From Methylotenera oryzisoli (GTDB lineage: Bacteria; Pseudomonadota; Gammaproteobacteria; Burkholderiales; Methylophilaceae): DNA of 64,000 nt. The position numbers were made by a program, and so were the translations under genes. The DNA is taken from the NCBI RefSeq assembly GCF_004661485.1, contig NZ_PQVH01000010.1:1-64000 (forward strand), given 5' to 3'. Every line of letters starts with the position of its first letter. Position 1 is the stretch's first letter. Below, one piece after another: positions 44,359-61,020 of this stretch. The notes under the pieces are model-generated. The model was not told where the DNA came from. It did not search any database and was given only the letters and a program-made list of their open reading frames with translations.

Positions 44359-44364
44359 TATAAT
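44359..44364 (+). promoter_or_regulatory. Possible -10 element ahead of riboswitch 1
   Basis: TATAAT lies about 10 nt before the first riboswitch helix. No good -35 hexamer is seen at standard distance. Between the zapB-like gene and this point (44238-44358) I see nothing else. Confidence 0.45.
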
Positions 44365-44374
44365 TGTTGCTGTT

Positions 44375-44600
44375 GAAAGGTGCCATGTTTGTTCTTAATA
44401 AACAAGGTGAAACTGGGAAATAGGTGCGTTAATCCGCTATTCTGAGCGTAATACAATCCCTATGCTGCCCCCGCAACGGTAAGTGAGTATGATTTCCAAT
44501 CATACTGTTTTGCAATAAACCACTGAGCCACGCTATTTTAATAGCTCATGCTTGGGAAGGTGCAAACATAACATTCACAAGCCCGGAGACCGGCCTCGCA
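44375..44600 (+). promoter_or_regulatory. Cobalamin riboswitch 1 (btuB operon leader)
   Basis: Conserved elements in order: AAGGTGCCA near the 5' end, GGTGAAACTGGGAA, the core GCTGCCCCCGCAACGGTAA, TGGGAAGG, and the B12 box-like AGCCCGGAGACCGGCC at the 3' end. This is the standard AdoCbl-type (cobalamin family) aptamer. It should shut off the downstream btuB-btuM-cob operon when cobalamin is plentiful. Confidence 0.97.
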
Positions 44601-44724
44601 ACAATTAGTTGGAAATACCGCGGGGTGACGGTTTATCAAAACGTAACGCACAAGTGCATACTTGTGTTGTGTATTCTTTTCGTTTCGATGTTTTAGCTCC
44701 TCTGTATTTCCTTAGTTATCAGTC

Positions 44725-44752
44725 ACATGCGGGGACGCATGTCACCAAAGGA
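44725..44752 (+). promoter_or_regulatory. Hairpin next to the btuB ribosome-binding site
   Basis: A perfect ACATGCG/CGCATGT stem with a GGGA loop lies 4 nt before AAAGGA, the btuB ribosome-binding site. The 125 nt between aptamer and btuB could form the expression platform, most likely controlling translation, since no T-run terminator is seen. Inference. Confidence 0.5.
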
Positions 44753-44759
44753 AATTCAA

Positions 44760-46634
44760 ATGAACAAGAGTATCATCGCTGGCTTGGTCGGCTTGGCGTT
44801 TCACCCTGCTGTGCACGCTATAGAAGACACCATTAAATTAAATGACGTTGTAGTTACCGCCACACGCACGCCTCAATTACTCGAAAACATTGTTGGCGAT
44901 GTAACGGTCATTGACCGAGAACAAATTGAGCGCATTGGCGCAGGCTCATTTACTGACCTATTACGTTTGCAACCAGGGGTACAAATTAACACAAGTGGCG
45001 GCGCAGGTACTGCAAGTAGCATTTTTCTACGCGGCACAAACGACCAACACATCGTAGTGCTGGTTGATGGCTTACGCATCAACTCAGCTACACAAGGCAC
45101 TACCGCCTATGAAAAGATTCCATTGAGTCAAATTGAACGAGTAGAGATTTTACGTGGCCCCGCCTCAAGTTTATATGGCGCAGATGCCATTGGCGGCGTG
45201 ATTCAAATATTTACCCGCAAAAGCTTATCTGAAAAGCCATTGATTAACGCTGCGGTTGGCTTAGGCTCTTACAATACAAAAACTGCAGAATTTGGTATTA
45301 ATGGCGGTGTCAACGCACTTAAGTATGGCGTGAATGTCAGCAGCTTAGACACTGACAGCTTCTCAGCCAGACGCATCCGCCGAGGGAAAGATGCTGATGA
45401 TGATAGCTACCGCAATTTAAGCACGTCTGCTTTTGCTGAGCTTGAACTCGCTCAAGGTCACACCTGGGGCCTGCAGTTCTTTGAAAGCAAAGGTCACAAC
45501 GAATACGATGGCTCTAATTACGAGAACTTTAGCGACCAATTACTACAAAGCTACGCATTTACTAGCAAAAACCAGTTTACTGACACTTGGCACAGCACGT
45601 TCAAATTAGGGATGGGTATCGATGATTTAGATAGCCACGCAAAACCCAACACAAACAGTGCGCCATCAAACAAAAATTACAACCCTAGTGGCATTACAAA
45701 CTACCGGACAGAGCAAAAACAACTCACGTGGCAAAATGACGTTAAATTGCCATTAGGGATGTTAACTCTACTTTATGATCGCTTGGAACAGGATGTAGAC
45801 AGCAACCCGGGGCCTAGAATAAAGTTTAAAAAAGAGCGTAATAACGATGGCTTCATGGCTAGCTATGTACTTGATTACGAAAAACATTCATTCCAAGCAT
45901 CACTACGCGAAGACCATAACACGCAATTTGGCAACTACACTACAGGCGGTGCCGGTTACGGCTACCGCATCTCTCCAGAGTGGCGCGTCACAGCAAGCTA
46001 TGGTAAAGCATTTAAGGCACCAACATTTAACCAACTCTATTATCCGAAAATCACTGGCTACTCGGGAAATCCAAACTTAGCGCCCGAGCAATCGCGCAAT
46101 CGTGAGGTATCCATTCGCTACGAGGTTCGTCAATTTTCAACTGGCATAACAGCCTTTTATAATGAGATTGAAAACTTAATCGTCAATGGTGACCCTGTAA
46201 GAAACGTCGATCAGGCAACCATACAAGGCGCAACTTTTGAGGGCAACTGGAACATTACTGACGATTTACTATTAAGTGGAAATCTGACGGTACAATCTCC
46301 TCGTGATGACGATACGAACCAGTTACTAGTGCGCAGAGGCAATCGCTACGGCACAGTTAATTTACAACACACATGGGGTAATTTACAGTGGGGCGCAGAA
46401 GTCAATGGCGCATCTACTCGCTACAATGACGCAAGCAATAAAATACCGATGAGCGGTTATATGCTCGTTAATATGACGGCGAACTACAAGCTATCACCAG
46501 AATGGAAGTTGGAGGCACGAGCAAATAACTTGCTGGATAAGAACTATATTCTATCTTATGCAACTTCCACAGTGCCTTACAACACTGCTGGCAGCAACTT
46601 GTTCGTAGGCTTACGTTACAACATGAAACCTTAA
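44760..46634 (+). CDS. btuB: TonB-dependent cobalamin receptor BtuB
   Basis: 624 residues from the ATG at 44760, which follows AAAGGA; an 11-residue longer reading is rejected. Signal peptide about 1-20. TonB box region and plug start IKLNDVVVTATRTPQ; plug motifs FTDLLRLQPGVQI, VEILRGPASSLYGADAIGGVI. The C-terminal barrel ends in the aromatic strand LFVGLRYNMKP. Size and the riboswitch make BtuB the best call. It brings corrinoids across the outer membrane using TonB energy. Confidence 0.93.
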   Translation: MNKSIIAGLVGLAFHPAVHAIEDTIKLNDVVVTATRTPQLLENIVGDVTVIDREQIERIGAGSFTDLLRLQPGVQINTSGGAGTASSIFLRGTNDQHIVVLVDGLRINSATQGTTAYEKIPLSQIERVEILRGPASSLYGADAIGGVIQIFTRKSLSEKPLINAAVGLGSYNTKTAEFGINGGVNALKYGVNVSSLDTDSFSARRIRRGKDADDDSYRNLSTSAFAELELAQGHTWGLQFFESKGHNEYDGSNYENFSDQLLQSYAFTSKNQFTDTWHSTFKLGMGIDDLDSHAKPNTNSAPSNKNYNPSGITNYRTEQKQLTWQNDVKLPLGMLTLLYDRLEQDVDSNPGPRIKFKKERNNDGFMASYVLDYEKHSFQASLREDHNTQFGNYTTGGAGYGYRISPEWRVTASYGKAFKAPTFNQLYYPKITGYSGNPNLAPEQSRNREVSIRYEVRQFSTGITAFYNEIENLIVNGDPVRNVDQATIQGATFEGNWNITDDLLLSGNLTVQSPRDDDTNQLLVRRGNRYGTVNLQHTWGNLQWGAEVNGASTRYNDASNKIPMSGYMLVNMTANYKLSPEWKLEARANNLLDKNYILSYATSTVPYNTAGSNLFVGLRYNMKP

Positions 46635-46646
46635 CGTTGGTTAACC

Positions 46647-46674
46647 GCTAGGGCGAGCGAAAACTCGCCCTAGC
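46647..46674 (+). terminator. Perfect 11-bp hairpin between btuB and btuM
   Basis: GCTAGGGCGAG/CTCGCCCTAGC, loop CGAAAA, 12 bp after the btuB stop. No T-run follows, so transcription may continue into btuM at reduced level, or the stem may protect the btuB mRNA end. Confidence 0.6.
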
Positions 46675-46750
46675 AAAACACATTTACGATAAAATCATGT
46701 TTTATTTAACTATTATCATTTAAGCGAAACAATCGGAGGCTGCACCTACT

Positions 46751-47320
46751 ATGCTTACACTTTCTAAAACACAACAAATCCTTATAGGTGTTGCGCTTGC
46801 TGCACTCATCATTGTGACGCGCGGCCATCACTTTGCTTCAATCAACAGCCTGCCTAGCGCATCTCTTGCTGTATTTTTTCTAGCAGGTTTATATCTGCGC
46901 CCAGCACTTACGTTCCCGGCACTACTGGCTTTATGTACAGGTTTAGATCTTTACTCTGTTTACTTCCAAGGCGTGAGTAACTTCTGCGTGACCCCTGCTT
47001 ACGGCTTTTTACTGCCGGCATACGGCACAATGTGGCTAGCTGGCCGCTGGTTTGCTAAACACTATAGCTTCAGCTCTAAAGCGATTTTACCTCTAGTTGG
47101 TAGTGCTACCGTAGCTGGCGCATTAAGCGAACTATTTTCTAGCGGTGGCTTTTATTTCTTTGGTGGTCGCTACCCTGACCCAACTATTGCAGAGTTTGGT
47201 GCACGTTTACTTAAATACGCGCCACGCCAATTTGAAAATATTGGCTTCTGGTTAGCGGTTGCTGCTGTAGTGCACATTACATTTGCATTAGCAAACGGCT
47301 TGAGCCGCGCTAAAGCTTAA
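46751..47320 (+). CDS. btuM: BtuM-type ECF S-component for cobalamin
   Basis: 189 residues with about six membrane helices and no ATPase partner nearby. The segment GVSNFCVTPAYGFLLPAYG places a cysteine at residue 79. This matches the BtuM family, in which a Cys near position 80 ligates cobalt and promotes decyanation of cyanocobalamin (Thiobacillus denitrificans BtuM). It lies directly after btuB and before cobO, which adenosylates the imported corrinoid. GGAGG lies 12 nt before the ATG, rather far. Confidence 0.82.
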   Translation: MLTLSKTQQILIGVALAALIIVTRGHHFASINSLPSASLAVFFLAGLYLRPALTFPALLALCTGLDLYSVYFQGVSNFCVTPAYGFLLPAYGTMWLAGRWFAKHYSFSSKAILPLVGSATVAGALSELFSSGGFYFFGGRYPDPTIAEFGARLLKYAPRQFENIGFWLAVAAVVHITFALANGLSRAKA

Positions 47321-47325
47321 GCTAG

Positions 47326-47931
47326 ATGACCTCTGATGACAAAAGCACGCGCCATACAGCACGTATGGTGCGTAAAAAGGCAGTGATAGATGCTGCGATT
47401 GAACAAGCAAACCAAGAAAAAGGCTTGCTACTGGTACTGACTGGTAACGGCAAAGGTAAAAGTTCTTCTGCTTTCGGCATGATGGCACGCGCTTTAGGCT
47501 ACGGCATGAAGGTGGGCGTTGCGCAATTTATCAAAGGGCGCAGCGACACCGGCGAAGAGGCCTTTTTTCGCGGCCAAGCCAATGTAGAGTGGCACGTTCT
47601 GGGCGAAGGCTTTACCTGGAACACTCAAGACCGAGAACGCGACACCAAAACTGCACAAGCCGGATGGGCTATTGCACAACGTATGTTGCGCGACCCCAGC
47701 ATTCAACTGGTGATTCTAGACGAGCTCACCTACACCATCAAATACGGCTACCTAGACCTCACGCAAATACTGGCTGACATTGCCGCCAGACCCGCCATGC
47801 AGCACGTAGTGGTGACTGGTCGCGGCGCCCCAGTTGCACTCACCGAGTTGGCAGACACCGTGAGTGAAATTATGGATATTAAACATGCATGGCGCGCTGG
47901 CATTAAGGCACAGCCAGGCATTGACCTGTAA
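47326..47931 (+). CDS. cobO: Cob(I)yrinic acid a,c-diamide adenosyltransferase
   Basis: 201-residue CobO/BtuR family protein. The P-loop TGNGKGKSSSAFG binds ATP, and VILDELTYTIKYGYL is the family segment. It transfers the 5'-deoxyadenosyl group to Co(I) corrinoids, both in de novo synthesis and in salvage. It lies 5 bp after btuM and 9 bp before cobB. Confidence 0.96.
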   Translation: MTSDDKSTRHTARMVRKKAVIDAAIEQANQEKGLLLVLTGNGKGKSSSAFGMMARALGYGMKVGVAQFIKGRSDTGEEAFFRGQANVEWHVLGEGFTWNTQDRERDTKTAQAGWAIAQRMLRDPSIQLVILDELTYTIKYGYLDLTQILADIAARPAMQHVVVTGRGAPVALTELADTVSEIMDIKHAWRAGIKAQPGIDL

Positions 47932-47940
47932 CCAAACGCT

Positions 47941-49203
47941 ATGACCACTTGCCACGCCCTACTTATTTCCGCCCCAGCGTCTGGGCAGGGAAAAACCTTT
48001 ATCACCGCTGCCCTGGCGCGCGCATGGCGCAACCAAGGGTTGCGTGTTCAAGCATTTAAGTGTGGCCCTGACTTCTTAGATCCCATGATTTTAGAAGTGG
48101 CAACTGGGCGTCCTGTATACAACCTAGATTTTACGATGTGCGGCGAAAGTGATGCCGAAGCGCAACTATATCGCGCAGCACAGGATACTGATTTGATTAT
48201 CGTTGAAGGCGTGATGGGTCTGTATGATGGCACACCATCAAGCGCAGACATTGCCATACGCTTTAATTTACCAGTACTGCTTACCATTGACGCAGGCGGC
48301 ATGGCACAAACCTTTGGTGCGTTAGCAAATGGCTTGCTATCACATAAGCCTGACCTGATACCGGCTGGCGTACTCGCCAATAAAACAGGAAGTGCTGGAC
48401 ATGGAAAATTACTACACGACTCATTACCGCCACATCTCAATTGGTTTGGCGCATTACAAAAGAACGCAGCACTAAGCTTACCAGAGCGACATCTCGGCTT
48501 ATTCCGTGCAGGCGAAATCAGTGATTTGGAGCAAAAAATTGAAGACGCTGCCAAGGCACTGACGCAAGACTTACCTCGCCCGCCCACCGTCACCTTTAGT
48601 GCGCCAGCCACACAGCTGCCACCTAAACTCCTTGCTGGCAAGGTAATTGCCATTGCAAGGGATGATGCATTCTGTTTTATTTATCAGGCGAACTTAGACT
48701 GCTTGCAAGACATGGGCGCATCGCTGCGGTTTTTCTCGCCATTAGATGACCACACATTGCCAGAAGCCGACGCTTATTGGCTGCCCGGCGGTTACCCAGA
48801 GCTGCACCTGAATAAAATCAGCAGCAATTTAGCCATGAAAAATGCCCTACAGGCAGCCTTTGATGCGAACAAACCGATACTGGCAGAATGCGGTGGCATG
48901 ATGGCCTTATCTACCTGCTTAAATGATGAACCTTGCTTTGACTTACTATCCGGCGTGAGCAAAATAGAAGACCGCTTACAGGGGCTAGGCTCATTAAAAG
49001 TAACGTTACTCAATGATGAGTTAGGCGCACACACTTTCCACTACGGCAGTTTTACAACAGAGCTGCCGCCTATCGCCACCGCTAAGACGCGCTTTGGTAA
49101 AGTGGAAAACATTTACCAGCATGGTTCGATTATTGCGAGCTTTTTGCACTTTTACTTTGCCTCCAACCCAAACCTAGCCGCACAGCTTTTCACAGCAAGG
49201 TAA
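47941..49203 (+). CDS. cobB: Cobyrinic acid a,c-diamide synthase
   Basis: 420 residues. N-terminal ATP-binding domain with P-loop SGQGKTFITAALARA and the DQDTD-type segment; C-terminal class I glutaminase domain with the Cys in AECGGMMAL and a late HFHY-type His region (HFHYGSF). It amidates the a and c side chains. Its presence without ring-synthesis genes in this window implies that they lie elsewhere or that cobyrinate-level precursors are scavenged. Confidence 0.93.
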   Translation: MTTCHALLISAPASGQGKTFITAALARAWRNQGLRVQAFKCGPDFLDPMILEVATGRPVYNLDFTMCGESDAEAQLYRAAQDTDLIIVEGVMGLYDGTPSSADIAIRFNLPVLLTIDAGGMAQTFGALANGLLSHKPDLIPAGVLANKTGSAGHGKLLHDSLPPHLNWFGALQKNAALSLPERHLGLFRAGEISDLEQKIEDAAKALTQDLPRPPTVTFSAPATQLPPKLLAGKVIAIARDDAFCFIYQANLDCLQDMGASLRFFSPLDDHTLPEADAYWLPGGYPELHLNKISSNLAMKNALQAAFDANKPILAECGGMMALSTCLNDEPCFDLLSGVSKIEDRLQGLGSLKVTLLNDELGAHTFHYGSFTTELPPIATAKTRFGKVENIYQHGSIIASFLHFYFASNPNLAAQLFTAR

Positions 49204-49208
49204 GCCAA

Positions 49209-52200
49209 GTGTCTTTAATCAAACCTAGATTAATCAATATCAGTATTTTGCTATTGAGCCTACTGACAGGCACAGCACACAGCGCAACATTACTCGGCAT
49301 TGTATCCGACAGAACTGCGCCCGCCACCGCTGAAGCTGCAAAGAACACGCTGGCCCAACGCCCGGGTGACAAGATTACATTACGCTCGCAATCACAATTG
49401 ATGGCGGCAGACAGCCGTACATTAAAACGCTGGTTACAAGAAGCAGATGCCGTGTTTGCCGTAGCGCAATACGCAGAATCATCGGCACAACTACAGCGAG
49501 CACTTGATGCGCTAAAATCCGACCCGGCCAAAATGCAGCCGGCTACTTTTATCGCATTTAATGGCGATAGCGCACTATCACTCAGAAGCCGCTTCAACAA
49601 AAGTGAGGTCAGTGACTTTTCTGAAGCAAAAGCACTAACACAAACACAGGAAAAAACGCCAGATGCACTGTTGGCGTCCGCACAAAAACACGCTGCTGCG
49701 GCAAAGTGGTTGGCACTAAGCGACGTTTGGCAAGCGGGCGGTCAGGAAAACTTGGCCGCATTTATGACTTACCTGCTCAACTCACAATCTGCTAAAAATA
49801 ATGCGATTTTGCCTACAGCCAAACCCATGCCGCCGATTCGCTTACGCGTGAACGGTAAAGAGCTAGCAACCGATCAAGTAACTTTCCCATCGCAACCCAA
49901 GCAAAACAGCAAGACTACATTAGCGGTGCTGGATTTAAGCACCAGTGACCCTCAGGTTGCAGATGCGATTTGTGCACAAACCCAACAACAAGGCATCAAT
50001 TGCGTTACGGTAATGGCCAAGTGGGGTGATGCGTCCAAGCAAGCTATAGAAAAACTACCAGCCATGCTGGCCCCAACGAAATTAACTGGCTTAGTAGTAT
50101 TACAAGACTTTGTGGTGGGTGCCGCAGAAGGGCGAGAGTCTGTCACCACGCTAATCAAAAAGTTAGACGTGCCTGTGTTTAAGGCGATCAGACTCACTGA
50201 TCGTAGCGCGACTGCCTGGCAGCTATCTGAAGATGGCTTACCTACTAACTCTATTCAATACCGCGTCGCCATGCCTGAAGTGCAAGGCAGCAGCCAGCCC
50301 ATGGTGGTTGCCGCAACGGGCGCGCCAAGTATTGATAAGCTCACGGGTGTAGAGCTACGCCTGCCGGAGCTGTTAACCACAGAAATCAAATCGTTGGTAA
50401 GCCGAGTGATGAACTGGCAAACCTTGCAACACAAAGCGAATGCAGAAAAGCGCGTCGCGATTATTTACTATAACCATCCACCCGGGCGCCACAACATTGG
50501 CGCGGACAATTTGGATGTGCCGCAATCGTTATTTGATATTTTGCACAGCATGAAAGCGGCTGGCTATCAAACTGGCGAACTACCTGCCACACACGAGGCA
50601 TTGCTGGATTTAATGCAGGATAAAGGCGTGAACCTGCCTGAAAACAACGAAGAACTGACCACGATGTTGCCTAAGGTAGCCAGTATGGACAACGCTAGTT
50701 ATACGCAGTGGTTTAACACGTTGCCAGCCGTAGTAAAAGGTGAAATGGTGCAAGGGCCGTTAGGTCGCCTGCACGCTGAGCTTGTGGCGGCACAATCAGC
50801 TGGCGAACTAGCAATTGCAAATAGCCGCTTGGCGAAGTCTATGCGCGAGCTGCGCCATTTGGTGGAAGGTGTTGACCACCCGCAGCGCACTGAAGCCATT
50901 AAATTACTGACTGAACTCAATGACGGTTACGAGGTTTGCTTAAGCCAGCATAGCTCCTGTGAGGTCATGGATGCATTAAAAACACGCATTGCCAATTTAA
51001 ATATTGAAGGCTTGCGCGGCTGGGGACCAACGCCAGGCAAGGTCATGGTCGTTAACAAAAAAATGATGTTCCCGGGCATACAGTTTGGCAATGTGTTTGT
51101 CGGGCCGCAGCCGCCGCGTGGCTGGGAAGTGGATGAAGAATTGTTGCATGCCAACACCACCATCCCGCCACCGCACCAATACTTAGGTTTTTACCACTGG
51201 CTTAAAGATAATTTCAAAGCGGATGTACTCGTGCATTTGGGCCGACACTCAACTTACGAGTTTTTACCGGGCAAAGCTGTGGGCTTATCGGCAGAGGATT
51301 ACTCTCGTATTATCGCTGGCGACCTGCCCGGGCTCTACCCGTACATCGTGGATGGCGTAGGGGAAGGTACGCAGGCCAAACGGCGCGCACTTGCGGTGAT
51401 GATCGACCATTTAACACCGCCACTAACCGCCACACCACTGTATGACCGCCTGCTCACGCTACGCCAAGTGGTTGAGAGTTACGAGTCTTCAAGCTCGGAC
51501 ACCATGCGCATTGCCTCTGCCAAAGAAATGCGTCGATTGGTAGAAATACTGGAGTTGCGCGCAGAGTTGGAGTCCAGCATGGCGGATGTACTAAAAGTGC
51601 GCGGCATTAATTTTGAGCAAGCAGATGACGATTTATTAGCGCATGAAGTCGGTCACTACCTGACCAAACTGCAAGAAAAATTCATGCCGCACGGCCTACA
51701 TGTATTTGGCCGTTCGTGGTCCGATGCCTCATTGCAACTGATGTTAGATTCTATGGCGCAAAATAAGCCTGACAATATTAGCGCTCAGATACGCGATAAT
51801 TTAATTGCCTCTCCTAAACTGGAAATGCAAGCACTGCTCAATGGTTTAGGCGGTGGTTTTATTGAGCCGGGCAAAGGTAATGACCCACTACGCTCGCCAG
51901 AATCGCTACCGACAGGGCGTAACTTTCATGCGCTTGATGGCGATGTGTTACCTACCCCACTAGGCTTTCAGCTAGGCTATAACATGGCGGCTAACGTGCG
52001 TAACCGTGACGACATTACCAAAAGTGAAGGCGTCATTTTATGGGCATCGGATGCCGTGCGTGATGAAGGCGTGATGGTGAGTTTTATTTTATCGCTGATG
52101 GGCATTACGCCAGAATGGAACTCGCGTGGCATTGTGCAAAAAATGCAGCTAGTACAGGCTCCCGATTCAGCCACCAAACGCTACGACGTTATCGTCACCA

Positions 52201-53597
52201 CTTCCGGCCTGTTCCGTGACCTGTACCCTAACCTGATGCAATGGATTGATATCGGCGGCAGAATGGCGCTGGCCGCATCGGCAAAGAGCATTCTACAAAG
52301 CAACCCAGATTTAGCTACCGCTCTGGACTCAGCCTTAAAACCGCTTGCGCACCTTAGCCGTGGCAATGAACCTATGGCGACCAACGGCGTGGCCATGCAT
52401 TGGGTCAAACGCACGCAAGCATTGTTAGCGCAAGGTATGCCAGCCGAGCAAGCCGGACGCGAAGCGGCATGGCGTATCTTCGGGGATGCACCTGGTGCAT
52501 ATGGCGCAGGCGTAAACACCTTAGCTGAGCGCTCTGGCGCTTGGCAAACCCGTAACGAAATCGGCCGCGCTTATTTGCAGCGCATGGGCCATGCCTACGG
52601 TGTAGATGCACAGGGCGAACCAGCGCACGAGGCGTTTGATACCTCATTACACAATATTGGAACCACCTACCACGGCCGCGCTTCTAATTTATACGGCTTG
52701 ATGGATAACAACGACGCTTTTGATTACTTAGGCGGTCTGTCACTCGCCATCGAAACCATTACTGGCAACAAACCACAAGCGCGTATTCTGAACCATGCAG
52801 ACCATAAAGGCTTCACGGATGAACCGCTTGAGTCTGCATTACTCATGGAACTGCGCGGGCGTTATTTGAACCCTTCATGGATCAAGCCACTGATGAGCCA
52901 CGGCTATGCCGGCGCGCGCACTATGAACCAAGCTTTTATGGAAAACCTATGGGGCTGGCAAGTGACACGCCCGGATATTATTAAAGACTGGGCATGGAAC
53001 GAAGTGAAACGTGTTTATATTGATGACGACTTAAAACTGGGTCTGAATCAATTTTTAGAGCAAGGTCACAACGCCCAAGTCAAAGCGAGCATGGTCGCAC
53101 TCATGCTGGTAGCGGCACAAAAAGGTTTCTGGAAGCCAGATACGGCTAGCGCACAGCAGCTATCTCAAACGCTGACTAGACTGGTCATCAAAAACGGCTT
53201 GCCTGGCAGCGGCCATACCGCGCCTAACCACCCCATGTGGAAATGGATAGCGCAACATTTGAATGCAGAGGATAAAGCAGGCCTTGCCCGTGCGCTTGCC
53301 AAGGCGCGTGGCTACGACAAGCCGCAATCCATTACTGAAGCTTCACCAAATTCCACACAAGTCACGCCGCGCGATGATGTACCAAAAGTAGTGCAAAACA
53401 AAGCAAGCAGCAAAGCCAATGCGCCACAACCTCAAGGCAACGAGGCCAAAACCAAACCAGAAACACCTATCAACAAAGTAGCGCGCGCTTATGAACTCAC
53501 TGTCGAGACAGTTAAAGACAATCTCGCATGGATACTGTTACTCCTGCCTATTTTTGCGCTAGGGCTCTGGTTCGGCACACGTAAACCTACTGCATAA
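49209..53597 (+). CDS. CobN-like chelatase subunit, secreted and membrane-anchored
   Basis: 1462 residues, longer than typical CobN (about 1,250-1,300). It has an N-terminal signal peptide (about 1-25, ending AHSA) and a C-terminal membrane helix (about 1437-1456) with a short basic end, so the body should be periplasmic. CobN/ChlH/BchH-family motifs: NHPPGRHNIGADNLDVP (about 420-437), WGPTPGKVMV, HLGRHSTYEFLPGKAVGLS. The usual HGTLEW is HSTYEF here. Residues about 1385-1425 form a polar linker before the anchor. It has no CobS/CobT partners nearby and is followed by ExbB-like and DUF2149 genes, like HmuS of Bacteroidetes haem loci. GTG start at 49209. True cobaltochelatase activity is doubtful. 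Confidence 0.88.
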   Translation: MSLIKPRLINISILLLSLLTGTAHSATLLGIVSDRTAPATAEAAKNTLAQRPGDKITLRSQSQLMAADSRTLKRWLQEADAVFAVAQYAESSAQLQRALDALKSDPAKMQPATFIAFNGDSALSLRSRFNKSEVSDFSEAKALTQTQEKTPDALLASAQKHAAAAKWLALSDVWQAGGQENLAAFMTYLLNSQSAKNNAILPTAKPMPPIRLRVNGKELATDQVTFPSQPKQNSKTTLAVLDLSTSDPQVADAICAQTQQQGINCVTVMAKWGDASKQAIEKLPAMLAPTKLTGLVVLQDFVVGAAEGRESVTTLIKKLDVPVFKAIRLTDRSATAWQLSEDGLPTNSIQYRVAMPEVQGSSQPMVVAATGAPSIDKLTGVELRLPELLTTEIKSLVSRVMNWQTLQHKANAEKRVAIIYYNHPPGRHNIGADNLDVPQSLFDILHSMKAAGYQTGELPATHEALLDLMQDKGVNLPENNEELTTMLPKVASMDNASYTQWFNTLPAVVKGEMVQGPLGRLHAELVAAQSAGELAIANSRLAKSMRELRHLVEGVDHPQRTEAIKLLTELNDGYEVCLSQHSSCEVMDALKTRIANLNIEGLRGWGPTPGKVMVVNKKMMFPGIQFGNVFVGPQPPRGWEVDEELLHANTTIPPPHQYLGFYHWLKDNFKADVLVHLGRHSTYEFLPGKAVGLSAEDYSRIIAGDLPGLYPYIVDGVGEGTQAKRRALAVMIDHLTPPLTATPLYDRLLTLRQVVESYESSSSDTMRIASAKEMRRLVEILELRAELESSMADVLKVRGINFEQADDDLLAHEVGHYLTKLQEKFMPHGLHVFGRSWSDASLQLMLDSMAQNKPDNISAQIRDNLIASPKLEMQALLNGLGGGFIEPGKGNDPLRSPESLPTGRNFHALDGDVLPTPLGFQLGYNMAANVRNRDDITKSEGVILWASDAVRDEGVMVSFILSLMGITPEWNSRGIVQKMQLVQAPDSATKRYDVIVTTSGLFRDLYPNLMQWIDIGGRMALAASAKSILQSNPDLATALDSALKPLAHLSRGNEPMATNGVAMHWVKRTQALLAQGMPAEQAGREAAWRIFGDAPGAYGAGVNTLAERSGAWQTRNEIGRAYLQRMGHAYGVDAQGEPAHEAFDTSLHNIGTTYHGRASNLYGLMDNNDAFDYLGGLSLAIETITGNKPQARILNHADHKGFTDEPLESALLMELRGRYLNPSWIKPLMSHGYAGARTMNQAFMENLWGWQVTRPDIIKDWAWNEVKRVYIDDDLKLGLNQFLEQGHNAQVKASMVALMLVAAQKGFWKPDTASAQQLSQTLTRLVIKNGLPGSGHTAPNHPMWKWIAQHLNAEDKAGLARALAKARGYDKPQSITEASPNSTQVTPRDDVPKVVQNKASSKANAPQPQGNEAKTKPETPINKVARAYELTVETVKDNLAWILLLLPIFALGLWFGTRKPTA

Positions 53598-53630
53598 AAA
53601 CCGTCAAGATTACTATGGAAAATCAATCAT

Positions 53631-54068
53631 ATGTCTATTAACTTAAATGCGTTACATAGCGCCATTACCTGGCTGTTAGAGCCGGTGATTATCGTCTTAG
53701 TTGCAGCTGTGGTGATTGCCGTACTAGAAGCCGGCTTAGCGATTGGCGAGCGTTTATTTGGGCTAAAGCAACTACGTAACGCTGGCGAGCAAGCAGTGCT
53801 AAGAGTGGCACGCAAACGCTTGGAGCGCGCAGACTTTTTAGCGCGCATACCTCCGATGCTTGGCTTAATGGCGACCATTATCCCGTTAGGGCCAGGGCTA
53901 GCGGCATTAGGTCAAGGCAACCCGTCTTTACTTGCGCAAGCGGTCACCACGGCATTTGATGCCACGGTATTGGGTTTGCTGGCTGGCATTATTGGTTTAG
54001 TGATAGGTAAGTGCCGCCGCCGCTGGTATGAGGATGTATTAGTGTCACTTGAAACAGAATCACAATAA
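53631..54068 (+). CDS. MotA/TolQ/ExbB-family proton channel protein (HmuT-like)
   Basis: 145 residues, much shorter than ExbB or TolQ. Three membrane helices: about 12-34, 76-95 and 112-133. The family core ARIPPMLGLMATIIPLGPGL and the AVTTAFDATVLGLLAGIIG segment match the ExbB/TolQ helices lining the proton path. It lies between the CobN-like gene and the DUF2149 gene, with 33 and 32 bp gaps. It probably forms the stator ring of a small ion-driven complex with the DUF2149 protein (inference). Confidence 0.87.
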   Translation: MSINLNALHSAITWLLEPVIIVLVAAVVIAVLEAGLAIGERLFGLKQLRNAGEQAVLRVARKRLERADFLARIPPMLGLMATIIPLGPGLAALGQGNPSLLAQAVTTAFDATVLGLLAGIIGLVIGKCRRRWYEDVLVSLETESQ

Positions 54069-54100
54069 GCTACTCAGACGATTTCAGCCCCAACAAAATC

Positions 54101-54433
54101 ATGCAAAAAAAGCGTAGCTTAGAGAGTCGTTTAAACGGTCGTTTTAATCACGAAGACGAAGATCCACGTGCCAGCCTAGTTAACTTAGTGGACGTGATGC
54201 TGGTATTCGCCTGTGGCTTACTGGCAGCACTCAGTGCCGGCCAGCAATCCAGCCTCACCCGCCCGCAGGAAGTCAATAAAGGGCGTGAAATTGAAGCGCC
54301 AGCCACCGGCGAGCAAAGTGCCGGCAATGGCTATGATGCCATCGGACAAGTATATCGCGACCCGAAAACGGGCAAGTTGTTTTTGATTGAATCCACAGCT
54401 GAGGCTGGTAAAGGATTAAAAGGTAAGCCCTGA
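54101..54433 (+). CDS. DUF2149 protein, ExbD-like single-helix partner
   Basis: 110 residues with a single membrane helix (about 28-46). Its core NLVDVMLVFACGLL resembles the ExbD/TolR sequence around the essential proton-binding Asp; the equivalent is Asp31. A periplasmic tail of about 60 residues follows, containing GQVYRDPKTGKLFLIE. The family occurs next to CobN-like and ExbB-like genes, including HmuU of haem loci. Its stop overlaps the bluB start (TGATG). Confidence 0.85.
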   Translation: MQKKRSLESRLNGRFNHEDEDPRASLVNLVDVMLVFACGLLAALSAGQQSSLTRPQEVNKGREIEAPATGEQSAGNGYDAIGQVYRDPKTGKLFLIESTAEAGKGLKGKP

Positions 54434-55098
54434 TGCAAGATTTTAGTTACCCAGACCATGAGAAAGAGGCGATTTATCGCGTCATCGCAGAGCGCCGCGA
54501 TATGCGCCACTTTCTACCGACACCAGTTGCCCCAGAAGTACTCGCCAAAATTCTGCATGCAGCACACCATGCACCCAGCGTAGGCTTAATGCAGCCGTGG
54601 CGTTTTATTCGGATTACGGATATCAATACACGCCGTCAAATTCACCAATTGGTCGATAAAGAACGGGTTCAGACTGCGCAAGCGATTGGTGAGCATGAAA
54701 ACTCGGCACGTATGGCGGAGTTTCTACGTTTGAAGGTAGAGGGAATATTAGAGTGCGGCGAGCTTATCGTGGTGACGCTATGCGACAAACGTGAGGAACA
54801 TATCTTTGGCCGTAGAACCTTGCCGGAGATGGATATTGCCTCCGTCAGCTGTGCGATACAGAACATGTGGCTAGCCTCGCGTGCTGAGGGTTTGGGCATG
54901 GGCTGGGTTTCTATTTTCGACCCTGTAGAGTTAGGTACATTACTCAATATGCCAACGGGGGCTAAGCCAGTGGCCATTTTATGCCTAGGCCATGTCAATT
55001 CTTTTTACAAAGAACCGATGCTGATAGAAACCGGCTGGAAACAGGCCAAGCCACTTGCGGATATGGTGATGGAAAATCAGTGGAAAAGTACAGAATGA
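54433..55098 (+). CDS. bluB: 5,6-Dimethylbenzimidazole synthase BluB
   Basis: 221-residue nitroreductase-fold flavoprotein. It carries the BluB N-terminus (AERRDMRHFLPTPV), HHAPSVGLMQPWRF and the GMGWVSIFDP segment. It cuts FMNH2 with oxygen to yield DMB, the lower ligand of cobalamin, so the cell can make true cobalamin aerobically. Starts on the overlap with DUF2149. Confidence 0.95.
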   Translation: MQDFSYPDHEKEAIYRVIAERRDMRHFLPTPVAPEVLAKILHAAHHAPSVGLMQPWRFIRITDINTRRQIHQLVDKERVQTAQAIGEHENSARMAEFLRLKVEGILECGELIVVTLCDKREEHIFGRRTLPEMDIASVSCAIQNMWLASRAEGLGMGWVSIFDPVELGTLLNMPTGAKPVAILCLGHVNSFYKEPMLIETGWKQAKPLADMVMENQWKSTE

Positions 55099-55901
55099 AA
55101 TATCCGCAACGGATTGTATGCCTCACCACCGAGCCTACTGAAGTACTGTACCTGCTGGGTGAACAGGCGCGTATTGTTGGCATCTCCGGCTTTACCACCC
55201 GCCCCGCCATTGCACGTAAAGAAAAGCCAAAAATCGCTGCATTTACCAGCGCTAAGATTGATAAAATATTGGCGCTCAAGCCGGACTTAGTGATTGGCTT
55301 CTCCAACCTGCAGGCCGATATTGCAGCATCTCTGATTCGCGCTGGGGTAGAAGTGCATATCTTTAACCAGCGCTCGATTGCACAAATGCTGAACATGATT
55401 GCCACTGTAGGCAGCTTGGTTGGCGCCTCGGAGAAAGCGTTTAAACTAATTGCTGAGCTTGAAAATACCATACAGCTGGCAAAGGATACAGCCTCTCAAT
55501 TACCAGCAAAACCAGTGGTCTATTTTGAAGAGTGGAACGACCCCATGATTTGCAGTATCAAATGGGCTGCTGAGCTGATTGAAATCGCAGGCGGTAAGGA
55601 TTGCTTTCCGGAGCTATCGCAGTTTCACAGTGCAAAAGACAGAACCGTGCAAGCCAGCCAAGTGATAGAGCGCCAGCCTGACATCATCATCGGCTCATGG
55701 TGCGGCAAAAAGTTTCAGCCTGAACAGGTCATCGCTAGAGAAGGATGGGATACCATTCCTGCCGTTAAAAATGGCTTGGTCTTTGAAATTAAATCGGCGG
55801 ATATTTTGCAGCCGGGGCCATCACTGATTACCCACGGCTTGCAACAAGTACAGGCCATTATCCAGCAATGGGCTTTGGCACACAGCAACAATAGGAACTA
55901 A
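55095..55901 (+). CDS. BtuF-like cobalamin-binding protein without signal peptide
   Basis: 268 residues from the ATG at 55095, which overlaps the bluB stop (ATGA). The fold is a BtuF/FhuD type periplasmic-binding protein (IVCLTTEPTEVLYLLG, DLVIGFSNLQADIAASL, VYFEEWNDPM). The protein begins right at the first beta strand, so no export signal is present. Reading further upstream in this frame gives no signal peptide either. No BtuC or BtuD genes are nearby. It may act in the cytoplasm or be exported another way. Confidence 0.82.
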   Translation: MKYPQRIVCLTTEPTEVLYLLGEQARIVGISGFTTRPAIARKEKPKIAAFTSAKIDKILALKPDLVIGFSNLQADIAASLIRAGVEVHIFNQRSIAQMLNMIATVGSLVGASEKAFKLIAELENTIQLAKDTASQLPAKPVVYFEEWNDPMICSIKWAAELIEIAGGKDCFPELSQFHSAKDRTVQASQVIERQPDIIIGSWCGKKFQPEQVIAREGWDTIPAVKNGLVFEIKSADILQPGPSLITHGLQQVQAIIQQWALAHSNNRN

Positions 55902-55902
55902 C

Positions 55903-56430
55903 ATGGCTACACACCTTATTTTAGGCGGCGCACGCTCCGGCAAAAGCGCCTTTGCAGAAAAACTGGCTTTGGCATCTGGTCAGCCGGTCACTTATATTGC
56001 CACGGCACAAGTGTACGATACCGAATTTGGCGCACGCGTTGACCAACACAAAACACGTCGTCCTGCGCATTGGACAACGGTAGAGCAGTCTTTTAACCTA
56101 GCTGAAGCGCTGCAAACCCATGCCAAAGCAGACAGCTGTATTATTGTAGATTGCCTCACGCTATGGCTGGCGCAATGCATATGCCCAGACTGTGACCGCC
56201 CAGAAAATTTAGAATGGCAGCATGAGCGCAGCCGCTTATTAGAAGTTTTACCCAAACTGGAAGGCACAATATTGCTGGTTAGCAATGAGGTGGGCATGGG
56301 CATTGTGCCCTTAGGTGAAATTAACCGTCAGTTTCAGGATGAACAAGGCCGCCTCAACCAAGCAGTGGCCCAGTGTGTTAATAAGGTGAGCTTTATTGCA
56401 GCAGGCTTGCCTCTTACTCTTAAAGGGTAA
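55903..56430 (+). CDS. cobU: Adenosylcobinamide kinase / adenosylcobinamide-phosphate guanylyltransferase
   Basis: 175 residues. P-loop GGARSGKSAFAEKLA, then HKTRRPAHWTTVE with the GMP-accepting His region, DCLTLWL and SNEVGMGIVP are all typical. Activates adenosylcobinamide to the GDP form for nucleotide-loop assembly. A cysteine cluster CICPDC follows DCLTLWLAQ, where most family members have other residues. Confidence 0.95.
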   Translation: MATHLILGGARSGKSAFAEKLALASGQPVTYIATAQVYDTEFGARVDQHKTRRPAHWTTVEQSFNLAEALQTHAKADSCIIVDCLTLWLAQCICPDCDRPENLEWQHERSRLLEVLPKLEGTILLVSNEVGMGIVPLGEINRQFQDEQGRLNQAVAQCVNKVSFIAAGLPLTLKG

Positions 56431-56738: not shown

Positions 56739-58235
56739 CTATGACCACTTTCTGCGCACTCTGCGCCAGCCTAGCACGATACCGGCCACGGTGAGTAGCA
56801 CGCCACCTGCCGACAGGATGAAAATGGTGATTCTACGCGCCAGCAATCTGTCACCCAATGGCGGAATGTCCATCCGATGCAAGCCATTAAATAGCCAGCG
56901 ATACACGCGGCTATTACTATCTTGTGATGCCAGTATTTTAGTAGTACGTGCATCAACGTAATAAGTGGTGTTTAAGGCATCTGCAAACGCAATACGTAAC
57001 ACCTTAGGTGTTATTTGTGCATCCTGATTAAAATATAAATCACCGTTGCTAAGCCAGTGTGCAGAAGCCACCGCCCCATAGGCGCCAAGTTTACTCGCCT
57101 GCGCTTGCAATACGGCAGCGGAGAATGATGTAACGGGTACACCTGACTGGGGATCAATCAGCGACTCCTGCTGTTCATTTCTGGTCAATAGATAAGAGTG
57201 GCCGGCAAATCTCAGCCATTCAATTTCCTTAATACCAGTAAGTGAACGATTGGCTGTGGATGAAACTAATGGCAGCTTCATGTCCTGCACGGTCAGTTTG
57301 GCACCTGCCCAGCGCGCGGACTCTTCAGCACTCAATGACCGATCTGAAAACCAGCCGAATGGTGTTAAAGAAAGCCAACCGCTCAATAGCCATGTCATAC
57401 AGAAAACACCCGCATTTAAGCCGACAATATGATGCCAGCGCGCCCAGCCACGGTAGGGCGTAACCCGGTCATGGCTATAGCGTCGATTAAAACGTATACG
57501 CTGTATGCCCAGCCATAACCCCAAGCTTGTCAGTACTACCCCGGCAAAGGCTAACCACAACACAATCTGCCGCCAAATCTCTCGCTCCATGCGTAAGGGA
57601 GTAAAGTAAATCCAGTGAATCACTGAACCTAGCCAACTCCACGCTCGCTCAGTGCCCTTTGTATCCAGCACCACCTCACCGGTATGGCTAGCAACATAAA
57701 GCTCACTCGCCTCAGCATCATCCAGCGCAACACGGTATAAGGGTCGGTGCTCATTCAAGCTAGAAGAAATAGACCATTGGTCATGATTAATCAATGTAAC
57801 TGCCATTGCTTTTGCATTGCCTTGGAATTGCTCTGCAATTCTCGTAGCCTCTGCTTTTGCAGTTTCATTGGATTTATCTTTAATAGGTTTGTCTTGAACA
57901 GACTTAACCTGTATGTGCTCATTTGGACTAGCATCCGCCCACACCGAGAGCCACAGCCCATTTTGCAAGAAATAGTAAGCAGGCCTATGCTCCCGCATGG
58001 CTAACCTGACGCGTTCCGGCTCACCTTGCTTGCCCGTTAACGCCCATGCCTGCGCCACATCAAGCTTTACCTGTTGCAGTGCTAAATCATCCAAATGGCT
58101 TAACCGCTCGGCCGAGGTAAGCTGCGGATAAGCTACAAACAACATCACGAGGCCAGATAAGAACCAAAGCAATATAAACAGCCCCAGCCCAATACCTAGC
58201 CAACGATGCGTCAGATGTAAGTAACGCAGCTTCAC
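56739..58235 (-). CDS. PepSY-associated transmembrane protein
   Basis: 498 residues. Membrane helices at about 13-35, 220-242, 268-290 and 462-484, with two periplasmic regions containing PepSY-like repeats. N-terminus RYLHLTHRWLGIGLGL and the later RWHHIVGLNAGVF are the PepSY-TM signature with conserved histidines that could bind haem. Family members often pair with TonB receptors; some act as siderophore reductases (FoxB type). GTG start; 37 bp after the receptor stop, so it is cotranscribed and under riboswitch 2. Confidence 0.85.
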   Translation of the reverse strand: MKLRYLHLTHRWLGIGLGLFILLWFLSGLVMLFVAYPQLTSAERLSHLDDLALQQVKLDVAQAWALTGKQGEPERVRLAMREHRPAYYFLQNGLWLSVWADASPNEHIQVKSVQDKPIKDKSNETAKAEATRIAEQFQGNAKAMAVTLINHDQWSISSSLNEHRPLYRVALDDAEASELYVASHTGEVVLDTKGTERAWSWLGSVIHWIYFTPLRMEREIWRQIVLWLAFAGVVLTSLGLWLGIQRIRFNRRYSHDRVTPYRGWARWHHIVGLNAGVFCMTWLLSGWLSLTPFGWFSDRSLSAEESARWAGAKLTVQDMKLPLVSSTANRSLTGIKEIEWLRFAGHSYLLTRNEQQESLIDPQSGVPVTSFSAAVLQAQASKLGAYGAVASAHWLSNGDLYFNQDAQITPKVLRIAFADALNTTYYVDARTTKILASQDSNSRVYRWLFNGLHRMDIPPLGDRLLARRITIFILSAGGVLLTVAGIVLGWRRVRRKWS

Positions 58236-58272
58236 ATCACAACTTTATGGTTAATCATCATAAACCTAGTAC

Positions 58273-60393
58273 TTAAAAAGCCAACTCAGCAGTAAGCTCA
58301 ATACGTCTAGATTCGCCTAAAATAAATTGCTGCGTATCGTATGAGACCGGCGCATAGAGTTTATTTGTCAGGTTACGTAAATTGCCTCTCAGCGTAGCCT
58401 TTGGGTGAACGCGCCATGCAATACTCGCATCATAGACCGTATAGCCTTGCATGGTAGAAGTGTTGGCATTATTTGCATAACGTTTACCCACCATGCGTGC
58501 ACCTACACCAGCCTCCCAGCTTGCTTGTTGGTAATAAACCCAGGCGTTGGCTATTTTTTCAGGCACGTCGGTTGGTGTTTTACCCGCACGAGAAACACTA
58601 ACAGCAGGGTCACCCACAGATTCAACCAGCTCATCGTAACGCGCATCAAGCAAAGCCATATTCAAATCAGTACGCCAATGATTCACTGGGAACAAGGTTG
58701 CAGACAGCTCAACCCCGCGTGATGACTGCTTGCCGCCCTGCACTCTGAGCGTTGGGTTACTTGGGTCACGCGTGATAATGTCATCTTTTGCAATATGGTA
58801 AACCGCAAAAGTCAGTTCACCCTTACCCTCAGGTAGCGCGTGTTTAACACCAAACTCAGTTTGCTGTGCTGACGTTAGTTTAAATGCGCTGTTTCTTGGC
58901 CTTAACGTCACAATAGACGATACCGGGTCAGAACCCTGACTATACTGGCCATAGAATGCGGTGTTTGGCGTAGTTTGGTAAACCGCACCTAACCTGTAAG
59001 AAAACGGTGAGTAATCTTTATCTGTACTCGCCGTAGTCAGGCGGCTCTCATGGTCTACATTAATCCAATCCTGACGCAAACCAGCACTTAATTTGAGCTG
59101 ATTGGTAACATCAAAGGCATCCTCTACAAATAAAGACTGCTGTACGGTTTTAGACACAAAGTCCAGCGCAGTAGGGTCTATGGTCTGGAAGTAACCAGGG
59201 GTAAAGTTCTTGATGGCAACGTTACTGCTAGGGTCGTTGTCATGATAGAAATTGTCAAAATATTTAAAATCTACACGCGCGACTTCATAGCCTGCAGACC
59301 AACGGTTTTTATGGCCAAAAGCATCTGCAATTGAAGTCAACGCAAAGCGGTTACCAATTTGTTTCTGCTGATGCTTAATCTCAGTGTAGCCAGAGCGGTC
59401 AACCGTATTGCTGGCGTTATCAATTGAGAAGTACTCAACATTGCGCCAATGGCGATGCGCATTAAACCAGTAGCTCACATTACTTAATTTAAGCGCGTCA
59501 GATAATTCCCACTCAACTTTTGCACGTAAACGGTCTTCAGTGAAGCTTTGTTTATCATCGCTAATGTTGTAGTTTTCCTTACGTAATGATGAGTCTATGC
59601 GCCCATTACGTAATGGAATACCGGTATAGCGGGTCGGTGATTCATCTGAGTGATCAAAGGTAACGTTAATGCGCAGCTTATCTGTGGGGCTAAGTAGCAA
59701 GTTGGTCATGATTTTCTGACTATCATGTTCACCACGGTCTACATAGCCATTGCCTCCGGTAATCGAGGCATCTGCCCTAAATGCACCAATTTCACCCACA
59801 GCCCCGGTGCCACCCACTGCGGCCCTATATTCACCGCGTGAGCCAGTGCCAACCAGTGCCTGCAGTGAGCTGTCGCGACTAGGCGCTTTACGTATGCTGT
59901 TAACAATACCTCCCACCGTGCCATCGCCAAACATAACAGAAGCCGGCCCGCGTAGTACTTCAACACGTTGGTAGCCCCAAGTATCAGATGGGTAAGTAAG
60001 GGTGCCTGCAGCGGTAAGCAAACGGATACCATCTTCAGCCTGCCCTACAGAATCGTTACCAGTAAAGCCACGTGCAGAGTAAGCCACGCCAGAGCCAAGG
60101 TTGCTGATATCAGAAATACCTGTGGTACGAGAAACCGCCTCATGGATATTAATATCTCCACGCATGCGGATGGTTTCTATCTCTAGTGTTTCCACGCTGG
60201 CTGGCACTTCAATCGCTTTCAGGCCTAACCTGCTCGCCGTGCTATTGGGCTGTTTAAGGTTAAGTGCATTTCCACGATCCAAAGTAGACTCAACGCTCAC
60301 CTCCATGAGCTCTACTGCCGCTTCATCAGCCAGAGCCAGATGCGGCAACGCAGCCATAACAGCCGCAGTGATTAATTGATTGCTTTTAAGCAT
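58273..60393 (-). CDS. TonB-dependent receptor of siderophore-receptor type
   Basis: 706 residues. Signal peptide about 1-22. The plug has the siderophore-receptor pattern (AIEVPASVETLE, AVSRTTGISDIS, YSARGFTGND, VEVLRGPASVMFGDGTVGGIVN). The barrel ends in ESRRIELTAELAF. By sequence type it looks like FhuE/FpvA receptors, yet its leader holds a cobalamin riboswitch, so a corrinoid, cobalt chelate or metallophore substrate is more likely than plain iron. GGGAG lies 10 nt before the ATG. Confidence 0.88.
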   Translation of the reverse strand: MLKSNQLITAAVMAALPHLALADEAAVELMEVSVESTLDRGNALNLKQPNSTASRLGLKAIEVPASVETLEIETIRMRGDINIHEAVSRTTGISDISNLGSGVAYSARGFTGNDSVGQAEDGIRLLTAAGTLTYPSDTWGYQRVEVLRGPASVMFGDGTVGGIVNSIRKAPSRDSSLQALVGTGSRGEYRAAVGGTGAVGEIGAFRADASITGGNGYVDRGEHDSQKIMTNLLLSPTDKLRINVTFDHSDESPTRYTGIPLRNGRIDSSLRKENYNISDDKQSFTEDRLRAKVEWELSDALKLSNVSYWFNAHRHWRNVEYFSIDNASNTVDRSGYTEIKHQQKQIGNRFALTSIADAFGHKNRWSAGYEVARVDFKYFDNFYHDNDPSSNVAIKNFTPGYFQTIDPTALDFVSKTVQQSLFVEDAFDVTNQLKLSAGLRQDWINVDHESRLTTASTDKDYSPFSYRLGAVYQTTPNTAFYGQYSQGSDPVSSIVTLRPRNSAFKLTSAQQTEFGVKHALPEGKGELTFAVYHIAKDDIITRDPSNPTLRVQGGKQSSRGVELSATLFPVNHWRTDLNMALLDARYDELVESVGDPAVSVSRAGKTPTDVPEKIANAWVYYQQASWEAGVGARMVGKRYANNANTSTMQGYTVYDASIAWRVHPKATLRGNLRNLTNKLYAPVSYDTQQFILGESRRIELTAELAF

Positions 60394-60696
60394 TATTTTT
60401 ATACTCCCTGATACGCATTCAAATCAACATGACCAACCGTCATGTACGTTTTGCAGTAGTATTTGAATAGGAGCAGGACAGTAACTATAGACAGACTAAG
60501 CGATATCTAAGCCGACGATCATATGCACATGCATGCTGATTCATGCATAAGCGCATAGCCACATTTGCTGGTGAGGCAAATCAACCAAGGACTCTTTGAT
60601 AACCACTGGGATACTCTGTGAATATATTAATGTGTAAGCGAAATAATTATTTCGCCATTTTACTCAGGACGCCCCGCCCTAATTCAAACATTACGA
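60394..60696 (-). other. Long leader between riboswitch 2 and the receptor gene
   Basis: About 300 nt with no ORF. It contains an alternating purine-pyrimidine run (CATATGCACATGCATGC at about 60520) and small inverted repeats, and a run of short hairpins that may form the expression platform. No clear terminator T-run is seen on the minus strand. Confidence 0.4.
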
Positions 60697-60912: not shown

Positions 60913-61020
60913 GTTTAGATTTTTAGGGGGTTAAAGTCAAGTTTTGATAAAAATATCAATAAGATGCAAGTTGCCTGATGCCATCTGTTTGCAGAGATAG
61001 CGGAGATATTAAGATAAGCG

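Follow-up and report, generated by a model that had tools for sequence, protein, structure and literature searches.

What is a chelatase-fold protein doing outside the cytoplasm, beside a putative proton-driven motor, in an operon for the salvage of vitamin B12 (cobalamin)? The question is raised by the window analyzed here, a stretch of 64,000 nucleotides from Methylotenera oryzisoli (contig NZ_PQVH01000010.1, positions 1 to 64,000), in which a CobN-like gene that we call cobN' is followed by genes for an ExbB-family protein and a DUF2149 protein. These three genes (49209–54433; the trio) make up a cassette that is accessory to corrinoid salvage in bacteria unable to build the corrin ring. 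We consider it probable that their products form a periplasmic corrinoid-salvage machine coupled to the proton-motive force (pmf). That this machine also acts on the metal center of the corrin is held more tentatively, at somewhat less than an even balance.

The cobN' gene (49209–53597, plus strand) encodes a BtuS-type protein of 1462 residues with a PF02514 match of 824 bits (cut-off 24.5, E = 2e-247) and the histidine of the HxGxH motif, as expected of the PF02514 superfamily. Its architecture comprises an export segment at about residues 5–25, the chelatase body, a polar linker, and a C-terminal membrane helix (53520–53577, plus strand). Both membrane segments were called from hydropathy with thresholds of our own and not with SignalP. 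The close family of cobN', which we refer to as the B12-type clade, shares this layout: a hydrophobic N-terminal segment lies just ahead of the chelatase domain in all 51 full-length proteins, and a C-terminal helix follows a polar linker in 49 of them. The two features were found in 13/13 and 13/13 other exported CobN-like proteins, as against 1/31 and 0/31 cytosolic CobN and 0/12 and 0/12 BchH-like proteins. The export segment and anchor proposed in a first-pass annotation of this DNA are thus recovered among the relatives, and they strongly imply export of the protein, with its C-terminal helix holding it to the inner membrane through a linker that is polar and probably flexible. Tree and residue counts omit eight of the 59 B12-type loci, namely L028, L040, L056, L059, L062, L063, and L068, which are truncated or frameshifted, and L070, which has no open reading frame (ORF) longer than 800 residues; a duplicate, L149, is also left out. 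In L028, L059, L063, and L068 the CobN-like gene lies in pieces or in different frames, through sequencing error or decay, and the exbB and DUF2149 frames are present. An ORF-calling artefact was considered for cobN' and rejected, because conservation extends over 51 relatives, the mean column identity being 68% over the body (26 aligned). A structure model of the cobN' product (mean predicted local distance difference test score, pLDDT, 69.8) is confident mainly in the C-terminal half of the body.

The ExbB/TolQ/MotA-family gene (53631–54068, plus strand) begins 33 bp after cobN' and encodes a predicted proton-channel protein with a PF01618 match above cut-off (33.9 bits, cut-off 22.9, E = 3e-8) and no NCBIfam match. 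A further 32 bp separate it from the gene for the short DUF2149 protein (54101–54433, plus strand; PF09919 above the Pfam cut-off, E = 1.5e-8). The ExbB-family protein carries the membrane residues Thr82 and Thr112, each conserved in 57/57 proteins (15/15 and 4/15 among others), and DUF2149 carries a membrane aspartate, Asp31, in 57/57 (14/15 among others). We take these positions to be the proton path of ExbB/ExbD, the role of the threonines being assumed from E. coli ExbB. The DUF2149 model, of low confidence (predicted template modeling score, pTM, 0.29), shows one membrane helix with Asp31 followed by a hairpin. DUF2149 gave no PF02472 match, and only its Asp31 helix aligns with ExbD/TolR; by its sequence it is ExbD-like, not ExbD.

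The two genes keep close company with the CobN-like gene. They adjoin it in 56/56 loci first examined (53 B12-type, three of a sister type), which had been collected by CobN-like similarity only. Approached from the other side, PF09919 matched in 13 of 299 evenly drawn Pseudomonadota genomes, in 13/13 cases on the same strand as a PF02514 gene and less than about 1 kb from it, on either side; this frequency is a lower bound because PF09919 overlooked the copy in one genome (G252, locus L112), which our own profile detected. No such copy was found in the flanks (about 1.5–6 kb) of 31 cytosolic CobN and 12 BchH-like genes. In the haem loci, an ExbB/ExbD pair has been attributed to the outer-membrane receptor (PMC10100974; figure legend of PMC12583661). 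Such a receptor-driven motor is disfavored for the B12-type branch, since stand-alone units exist, among them a copy in the laboratory organism Azotobacter vinelandii (L065). The sequences strongly imply that an ExbB/ExbD-type motor is built from ExbB and DUF2149, and that its partner is the cobN' product and not an outer-membrane receptor.

A cobalamin riboswitch was found upstream in 49/53 B12-type loci with a profile that we built ourselves, immediately 5' of cobN' in 29 and 5' of an upstream TonB receptor in 20. Among the misses, L042, L056, and L070 begin in or near the unit at a contig edge, and L054 is genuine. A recheck with Rfam confirmed five of six loci, including Pseudomonas and Azotobacter units without any of the sought B12 genes adjoining; several Pseudomonas-type matches come from our own profile alone. 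RF00174 was present in 62/62 genomes searched but also in 8/14 control genomes, and its mere presence is therefore not distinctive. Placed under a B12 riboswitch, the trio should be produced when B12 is scarce. The links of the family to ExbB/DUF2149 and to B12 riboswitches that the first-pass annotation had put forward both extend, then, to other genomes. Elsewhere in the M. oryzisoli genome (contig C19, 52308–52532 and downstream; L206), a third cobalamin riboswitch precedes two large genes whose translations, read by eye with no family search, resemble class I ribonucleotide reductase subunits, as expected of a B12-independent isozyme.

Comparison within the Methylophilaceae shows what the trio is added to. 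Across 120 genomes of the family, a B12-type protein (at least 66% identity) occurs in 12 and CbiA in 44, with all 12 contained in the 44. For the comparison we used 20 of the 32 CbiA-positive genomes without a B12-type protein, two of which (G078 and G011) carry another exported type elsewhere. In all 20 cassette-less operons bluB directly follows cbiA, and the order riboswitch-btuB-btuM-cobO-cbiA-bluB-cobU is otherwise unchanged in most; the riboswitch is present in 19 of the 20, L158 starts mid-operon, and L172 is rearranged. Since the operon exists in sister genomes minus these three genes, the trio is an add-on to salvage. The CbiA gene tree requires at least three gains or losses of the cassette, with the cassette-less L158 and L164 nested with good support in a cassette-bearing group. 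The closest named relative of the window is a Methylotenera contig with 89% identity. Three Methylophilaceae loci (L077, L078, and L079, in G078, G011, and G055) hold a different exported CobN-like type with a TonB receptor, ExbB, and DUF2149; our profile found no B12 riboswitch near them, and they are possibly zinc-type units.

The hosts are consumers of B12. Formation of the corrin ring needs CobJ. The source genome (2.66 Mb, 100% complete) has a single PF02514 protein, only three TP-methylase genes, and no CobJ above cut-off; without a set of corrin-ring methyltransferases, the organism appears to be a B12 salvager. CobJ/CbiH exceeded the cut-off in only one of 46 genomes (1/43 B12-type carriers, plus three genomes with the other exported type), the sole positive being Azotobacter chroococcum. 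This search covered 46 of 62 genomes, six duplicates of named loci and ten metagenome-assembled genomes being omitted. The background in the phylum sample was 117/299, and CobJ occurred in 29 of the 30 genomes that yielded loci for their best-scoring cytosolic CobN. The difference between 1/43 and 117/299 has p = 1.6e-7 when kinship is ignored; within the evenly drawn sample alone, CobJ was found in 0/6 carriers, which is non-significant (p = 0.085). Cytosolic CobN goes with B12 makers, exported B12-type CobN with takers. A search for the CobT family (PF06213) gave 0/8 in the cytosolic-CobN genomes that served as positive controls, 2/26 in carriers, and none in the source genome; CobS and ChlI/ChlD were not searched. 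The two carrier matches, in G153 (L058) and G134 (L039), lie away from the cassette.

A midpoint-rooted tree built from 117 homologues places the 51 B12-type proteins in a single clade (support 0.97). With support of 1.0 this clade joins further exported CobN-like proteins that have ExbB/DUF2149, apart from cytosolic CobN and BchH-like proteins. Two Bacteroidota rows, named HmuS from their HmuY neighbors, are placed uncertainly (support 0.19). The predicted metal site of the cobN' product consists of His680 (51246–51248, plus strand), the counterpart of the catalytic His538 of HmuS, Glu719, and Asp1169 (52713–52715, plus strand), which stands at the position of HmuS His1209; each is invariant in 51/51 clade members. 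The Asp1169 column holds Asp in 29/31 cytosolic CobN proteins and His in 2/2 HmuS rows, and at the LSLDHxxEFMGG motif of HmuS the cobN' sequence reads LMDNNDAFDYLGG. Over the whole alignment, 41 columns are common to the clade and CobN but not HmuS, as against 22 the opposite way. This tally mostly reflects HmuS divergence, so only the metal-site columns were used.

Given these features, we propose the following mechanism, whose chemistry and direction we infer. Corrinoids imported by BtuB would enter the chelatase cleft of the cobN' product, where His680 and Asp1169 would face the corrin center. Proton flow through ExbB/DUF2149, relayed by the C-terminal helix, would drive opening and closing of the chelatase; as there is no ATP in the periplasm, a pmf motor would take the place of the AAA+ ATPases of the cytosolic cobaltochelatase. 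The least certain step is the work on the metal center, most probably the insertion of cobalt into corrins that lack a metal or hold the wrong one, which would then become usable by BtuM or BtuF-BtuCD and afterwards by CobO. Metal insertion is consistent with a CobN-like site, an auxotrophic host, the ATP-free periplasm, and the occurrence of natural metal-free corrins, such as hydrogenobalamin from Chromatium (PMC7693184). In its fullest form, the proposal is a pmf-driven cobaltochelatase outside the cytoplasm, working on corrins that other bacteria release without a metal or wrongly metallated and that auxotrophs take up; cobalt would be inserted in the periplasm with neither ATP nor a cobalt importer, ExbB/DUF2149 would stand in for the AAA+ motor that class I chelatases use, and late-pathway enzymes would finish B12. 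Taken whole, we regard this form as unlikely.

Several observations weigh against a motor-driven machine that works on the corrin metal. Because sister genomes carry the operon and not the cassette, the latter is dispensable for ordinary salvage, and CbiA, whose step neighbors that of CobN in the aerobic pathway, provides no argument for cobalt insertion, as 32 genomes of the family have it without cobN' and 12 with it. The aspartate at the Asp1169 column also occurs in 9/13 other exported proteins and is therefore not specific to corrin enzymes. At loop I, His506 is present in 31/31 cytosolic CobN and in 12 of the 13 other exported proteins, whereas all 51 members of the B12-type clade have Ala there; with this residue lost, the chemistry of the clade may differ from that of a chelatase. 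Purified HmuS is active in vitro without its motor (PMC12583661). The alignment of DUF2149 Asp31 with the ExbD aspartate, a rough comparison, spans 24 profile columns at a probability of 30%. Finally, two clade proteins, L113 (G325; viewed with about 1.5 kb per side) and L153 (Marinobacter sp. M3C plasmid), have no adjoining exbB or DUF2149, and a PF09919 search of G325 gave no match, a weak negative given the G252/L112 miss. These two are precisely the clade proteins without a C-terminal helix. Because helix and motor genes are missing together, we infer from the sequences that the motor works on the cobN' product via this helix.

The rival that survives best dispenses with metal chemistry, and we hold it to be nearly as likely as metal insertion, though doubtful when taken by itself. 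A pmf-driven periplasmic hand-over machine would take the corrinoid from BtuB and load or release it to BtuM or BtuF-BtuCD, the chelatase fold acting as a corrinoid-binding clamp with His680 as axial ligand. Non-producers that import complete corrinoids require no chelatase, the riboswitch stands immediately before cobN' with no intervening receptor gene in 29/49 loci, and the loss of His506 agrees with such a role; the invariance of His680, Glu719, and Asp1169, however, goes beyond the apparent needs of mere binding, and the cassette-less sister operons already include btuF and btuM. Quite unlikely, in our estimate, is a corrinoid dechelatase working in the HmuS direction and extracting cobalt, or a different metal, from the macrocycle. 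The related HmuS, which has the same pair of partner genes, does remove haem iron, for which it requires His538 (PMC12583661), and the equivalent histidine is kept in 51/51; but destroying a corrinoid would be of no benefit to a B12-starved auxotroph, the riboswitch senses B12 and not cobalt, and the HmuS partner His1209 is replaced by Asp throughout the clade. Slightly less likely still is a dechelatase of metallophores or cobalt complexes that serves metal supply. The P. aeruginosa unit PA1922-PA1925, where the same trio and a TonB receptor are under Zur (PMC9431628, PMC4542158), may be of this kind, and so may a trio that a Runella plasmid carries within a hyp cluster. Free cobalt would be of little use to non-producers, and the B12-type units are under B12 control with many corrinoid genes as neighbors.

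A HmuS-like haem-iron system that sits in a B12 operon by chance is very improbable and largely refuted. HmuS was indeed first in the PDB sequence search (E = 2e-105), with CobN at 6e-105 and ChlH also related, but the residues that define the haem dechelatase are missing. At the position of the Met79 haem ligand, the 51 clade members most often have Val (35), Leu (9), or Gln (3), with Gln in the window; the position of the other haem ligand, His254, holds Asp in 50/51; the LSLDHxxEFMGG/His1209 motif has Asp in 51/51; and the Met-rich insertion (domain IV) is absent, with clade medians of 100 residues for the span and 5 Met. The two HmuS rows have spans of 200 with 9 Met and 308 with 32 Met, a rough test in which one row is hardly Met-rich. 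The riboswitch in 49/53 loci and the separate clade also speak against a haem function, and we rejected it; the mechanistic closeness to HmuS read from the first-pass annotation likewise lacks support. An ordinary cobaltochelatase (CobNST) acting in de novo synthesis is a practically negligible possibility and was likewise rejected, in keeping with the earlier annotation's doubt: despite the PF02514 match, the CobN-like metal-site Asp, and CobT-family matches above cut-off in 2/26 carriers, the product is exported (51/51 in the clade), its own genome has only three TP-methylase genes and no CobJ above cut-off, and only 1/43 carriers have CobJ.

The surrounding operon (44361–56430) has the order cobalamin riboswitch, btuB-btuM-cobO-cbiA-cobN'-exbB-DUF2149-bluB-btuF-cobU, in agreement with the first description of a tightly spaced trio behind a riboswitch and btuB-btuM. 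All of its elements lie on the plus strand. The riboswitch (44361–44612; RF00174, 88.2 bits, cut-off 31.5) is followed by a gene for a btuB-like TonB-dependent receptor (44727–46634; PF00593 and PF07715), whose best NCBIfam match, TonB-B12, scores 425 bits, below the cut-off of 599.7. The product of btuM (46751–47320), a predicted inner-membrane cobalamin transporter, has no Pfam or NCBIfam match and was recognized by similarity to PDB 8c7p ("Cobalamin ABC transporter", E = 4e-42), which we take to be BtuM. Decyanation by BtuM has been described (PMC6072759). Next come cobO/btuR, for a corrinoid adenosyltransferase (47326–47931; TIGR00708 above cut-off), and cbiA/cobB, for an a,c-diamide synthase (47941–49203; NF002204, 393 bits, cut-off 254), which ends 5 bp before cobN'. 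Beyond the trio, DUF2149 overlaps by 1 bp with bluB, for dimethylbenzimidazole synthase (54433–55098; TIGR02476 above cut-off); then follow a gene for a btuF-like periplasmic binding protein (54981–55901; PF01497, E = 5e-47), whose real start is probably more internal, and the kinase/guanylyltransferase gene cobU (55903–56430; NF004469 above cut-off). Nearby salvage genes are cobQ, for cobyric acid synthase (61106–62587, minus strand; NF001989, 693 bits, cut-off 273), and cbiB (62581–63549, plus strand; TIGR00380 above cut-off), after which the start of cobD, recognized by similarity to L030, runs to the end of the window. The minus strand at 56739–60918 holds another cobalamin riboswitch, the window's second (RF00174, 104 bits), which leads genes for a TonB receptor and a PepSY_TM membrane protein. 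A PepSY-type protein lies near 4/13 cassette-bearing Methylophilaceae operons versus 0/20 cassette-less ones, the flanks being of unequal length; it could be a candidate reductase of periplasmic corrinoids.

These results make a loosely annotated family testable, one whose members are labeled cobaltochelatase or magnesium chelatase in annotated plasmid records and whose trio occurs in settings related to B12, haem, hydrogenase, or zinc. What distinguishes the corrinoid branch is its residues, its regulation, and the lifestyle of its hosts. Unlike the receptor assignment in PMC10100974 and PMC12583661, our analysis argues that ExbB/DUF2149 energizes the chelatase-fold protein. A metal-handling step of B12 chemistry may sit outside the cytoplasm, salvaging scavenged B12-like molecules; if metal insertion is true, pmf can drive cobalt chelation and B12 salvage can start from metal-free corrins.

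Among known systems, the HmuS-HmuU-HmuV set of Bacteroidota (HmuS, PDB 9d26; P. gingivalis HmuS, PMC13227078) is similar: ExbB and DUF2149/ExbD-like partners accompany an exported, tethered homologue of CobN, and its catalytic His538 is kept as His680. The haem locus, however, has HmuY/HmuR where a B12 riboswitch stands here, and the B12-type proteins form a separate clade. The first-pass annotation had named the haem-locus equivalents HmuS-HmuT-HmuU; the correct names are HmuS, HmuU (ExbB), and HmuV (ExbD-like) (PMC13227078, PMC10100974). HmuT of the haem locus is a different membrane protein, and no gene lies between cobN' and exbB here. In P. aeruginosa, PA1922-PA1925 likewise unites a TonB receptor, a CobN-like protein, an ExbB/ExbD-type protein, and DUF2149 (PMC9431628), but the unit is Zur-regulated and belongs to zinc starvation (PMC9431628, PMC4542158). 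On the Runella slithyformis plasmid pRUNSL01 (3506–11540; L155), a TonB receptor, a urease-accessory-type protein, ExbB, DUF2149, and a CobN-like protein lie in a NiFe-hydrogenase hyp cluster, which suggests a nickel branch of the same machine. CobN of CobNST (PDB 7c6o, 9fpc, 9uk9) shares the chelatase body and the metal-site His and Asp, with Lys in CobN and Arg in the cobN' product preceding the His; it differs in being cytoplasmic, ATP-driven, and found in B12 producers, and in keeping the loop-I His506 lost here.

Closer in regulation is B. fragilis NCTC 9343, where a hmu-like operon lies behind a cobalamin riboswitch and a cobalamin role has been suggested (PMC10100974); it belongs to Bacteroidota and, in the available part of that paper, is mentioned without a clade, motor-link, or non-producer analysis. 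In Novosphingobium, a B12-riboswitch TonB receptor is followed by NiCoT permease and cobaltochelatase genes (PMC7689651). A literature search over titles, abstract openings, and passages, a scope that did not include Rodionov et al. 2003, found no publication on the proteobacterial B12-riboswitch trio, and priority for the B12 link may lie with that work. According to PMC6460266, Rodionov et al. 2003 proposed BtuS as a third CobN type; BtuS1 and BtuS2 of B. fragilis were investigated for haem iron (PMC6460266). BtuS and the cobN' product are alike in being CobN-like proteins with predicted export and a link to tetrapyrrole salvage. With the type defined via PMC6460266, the window protein has the export segment, the anchor, the ExbB and DUF2149 neighbors, and the separation from CobN/ChlH in the tree, and the B12-type clade probably belongs under the BtuS name.

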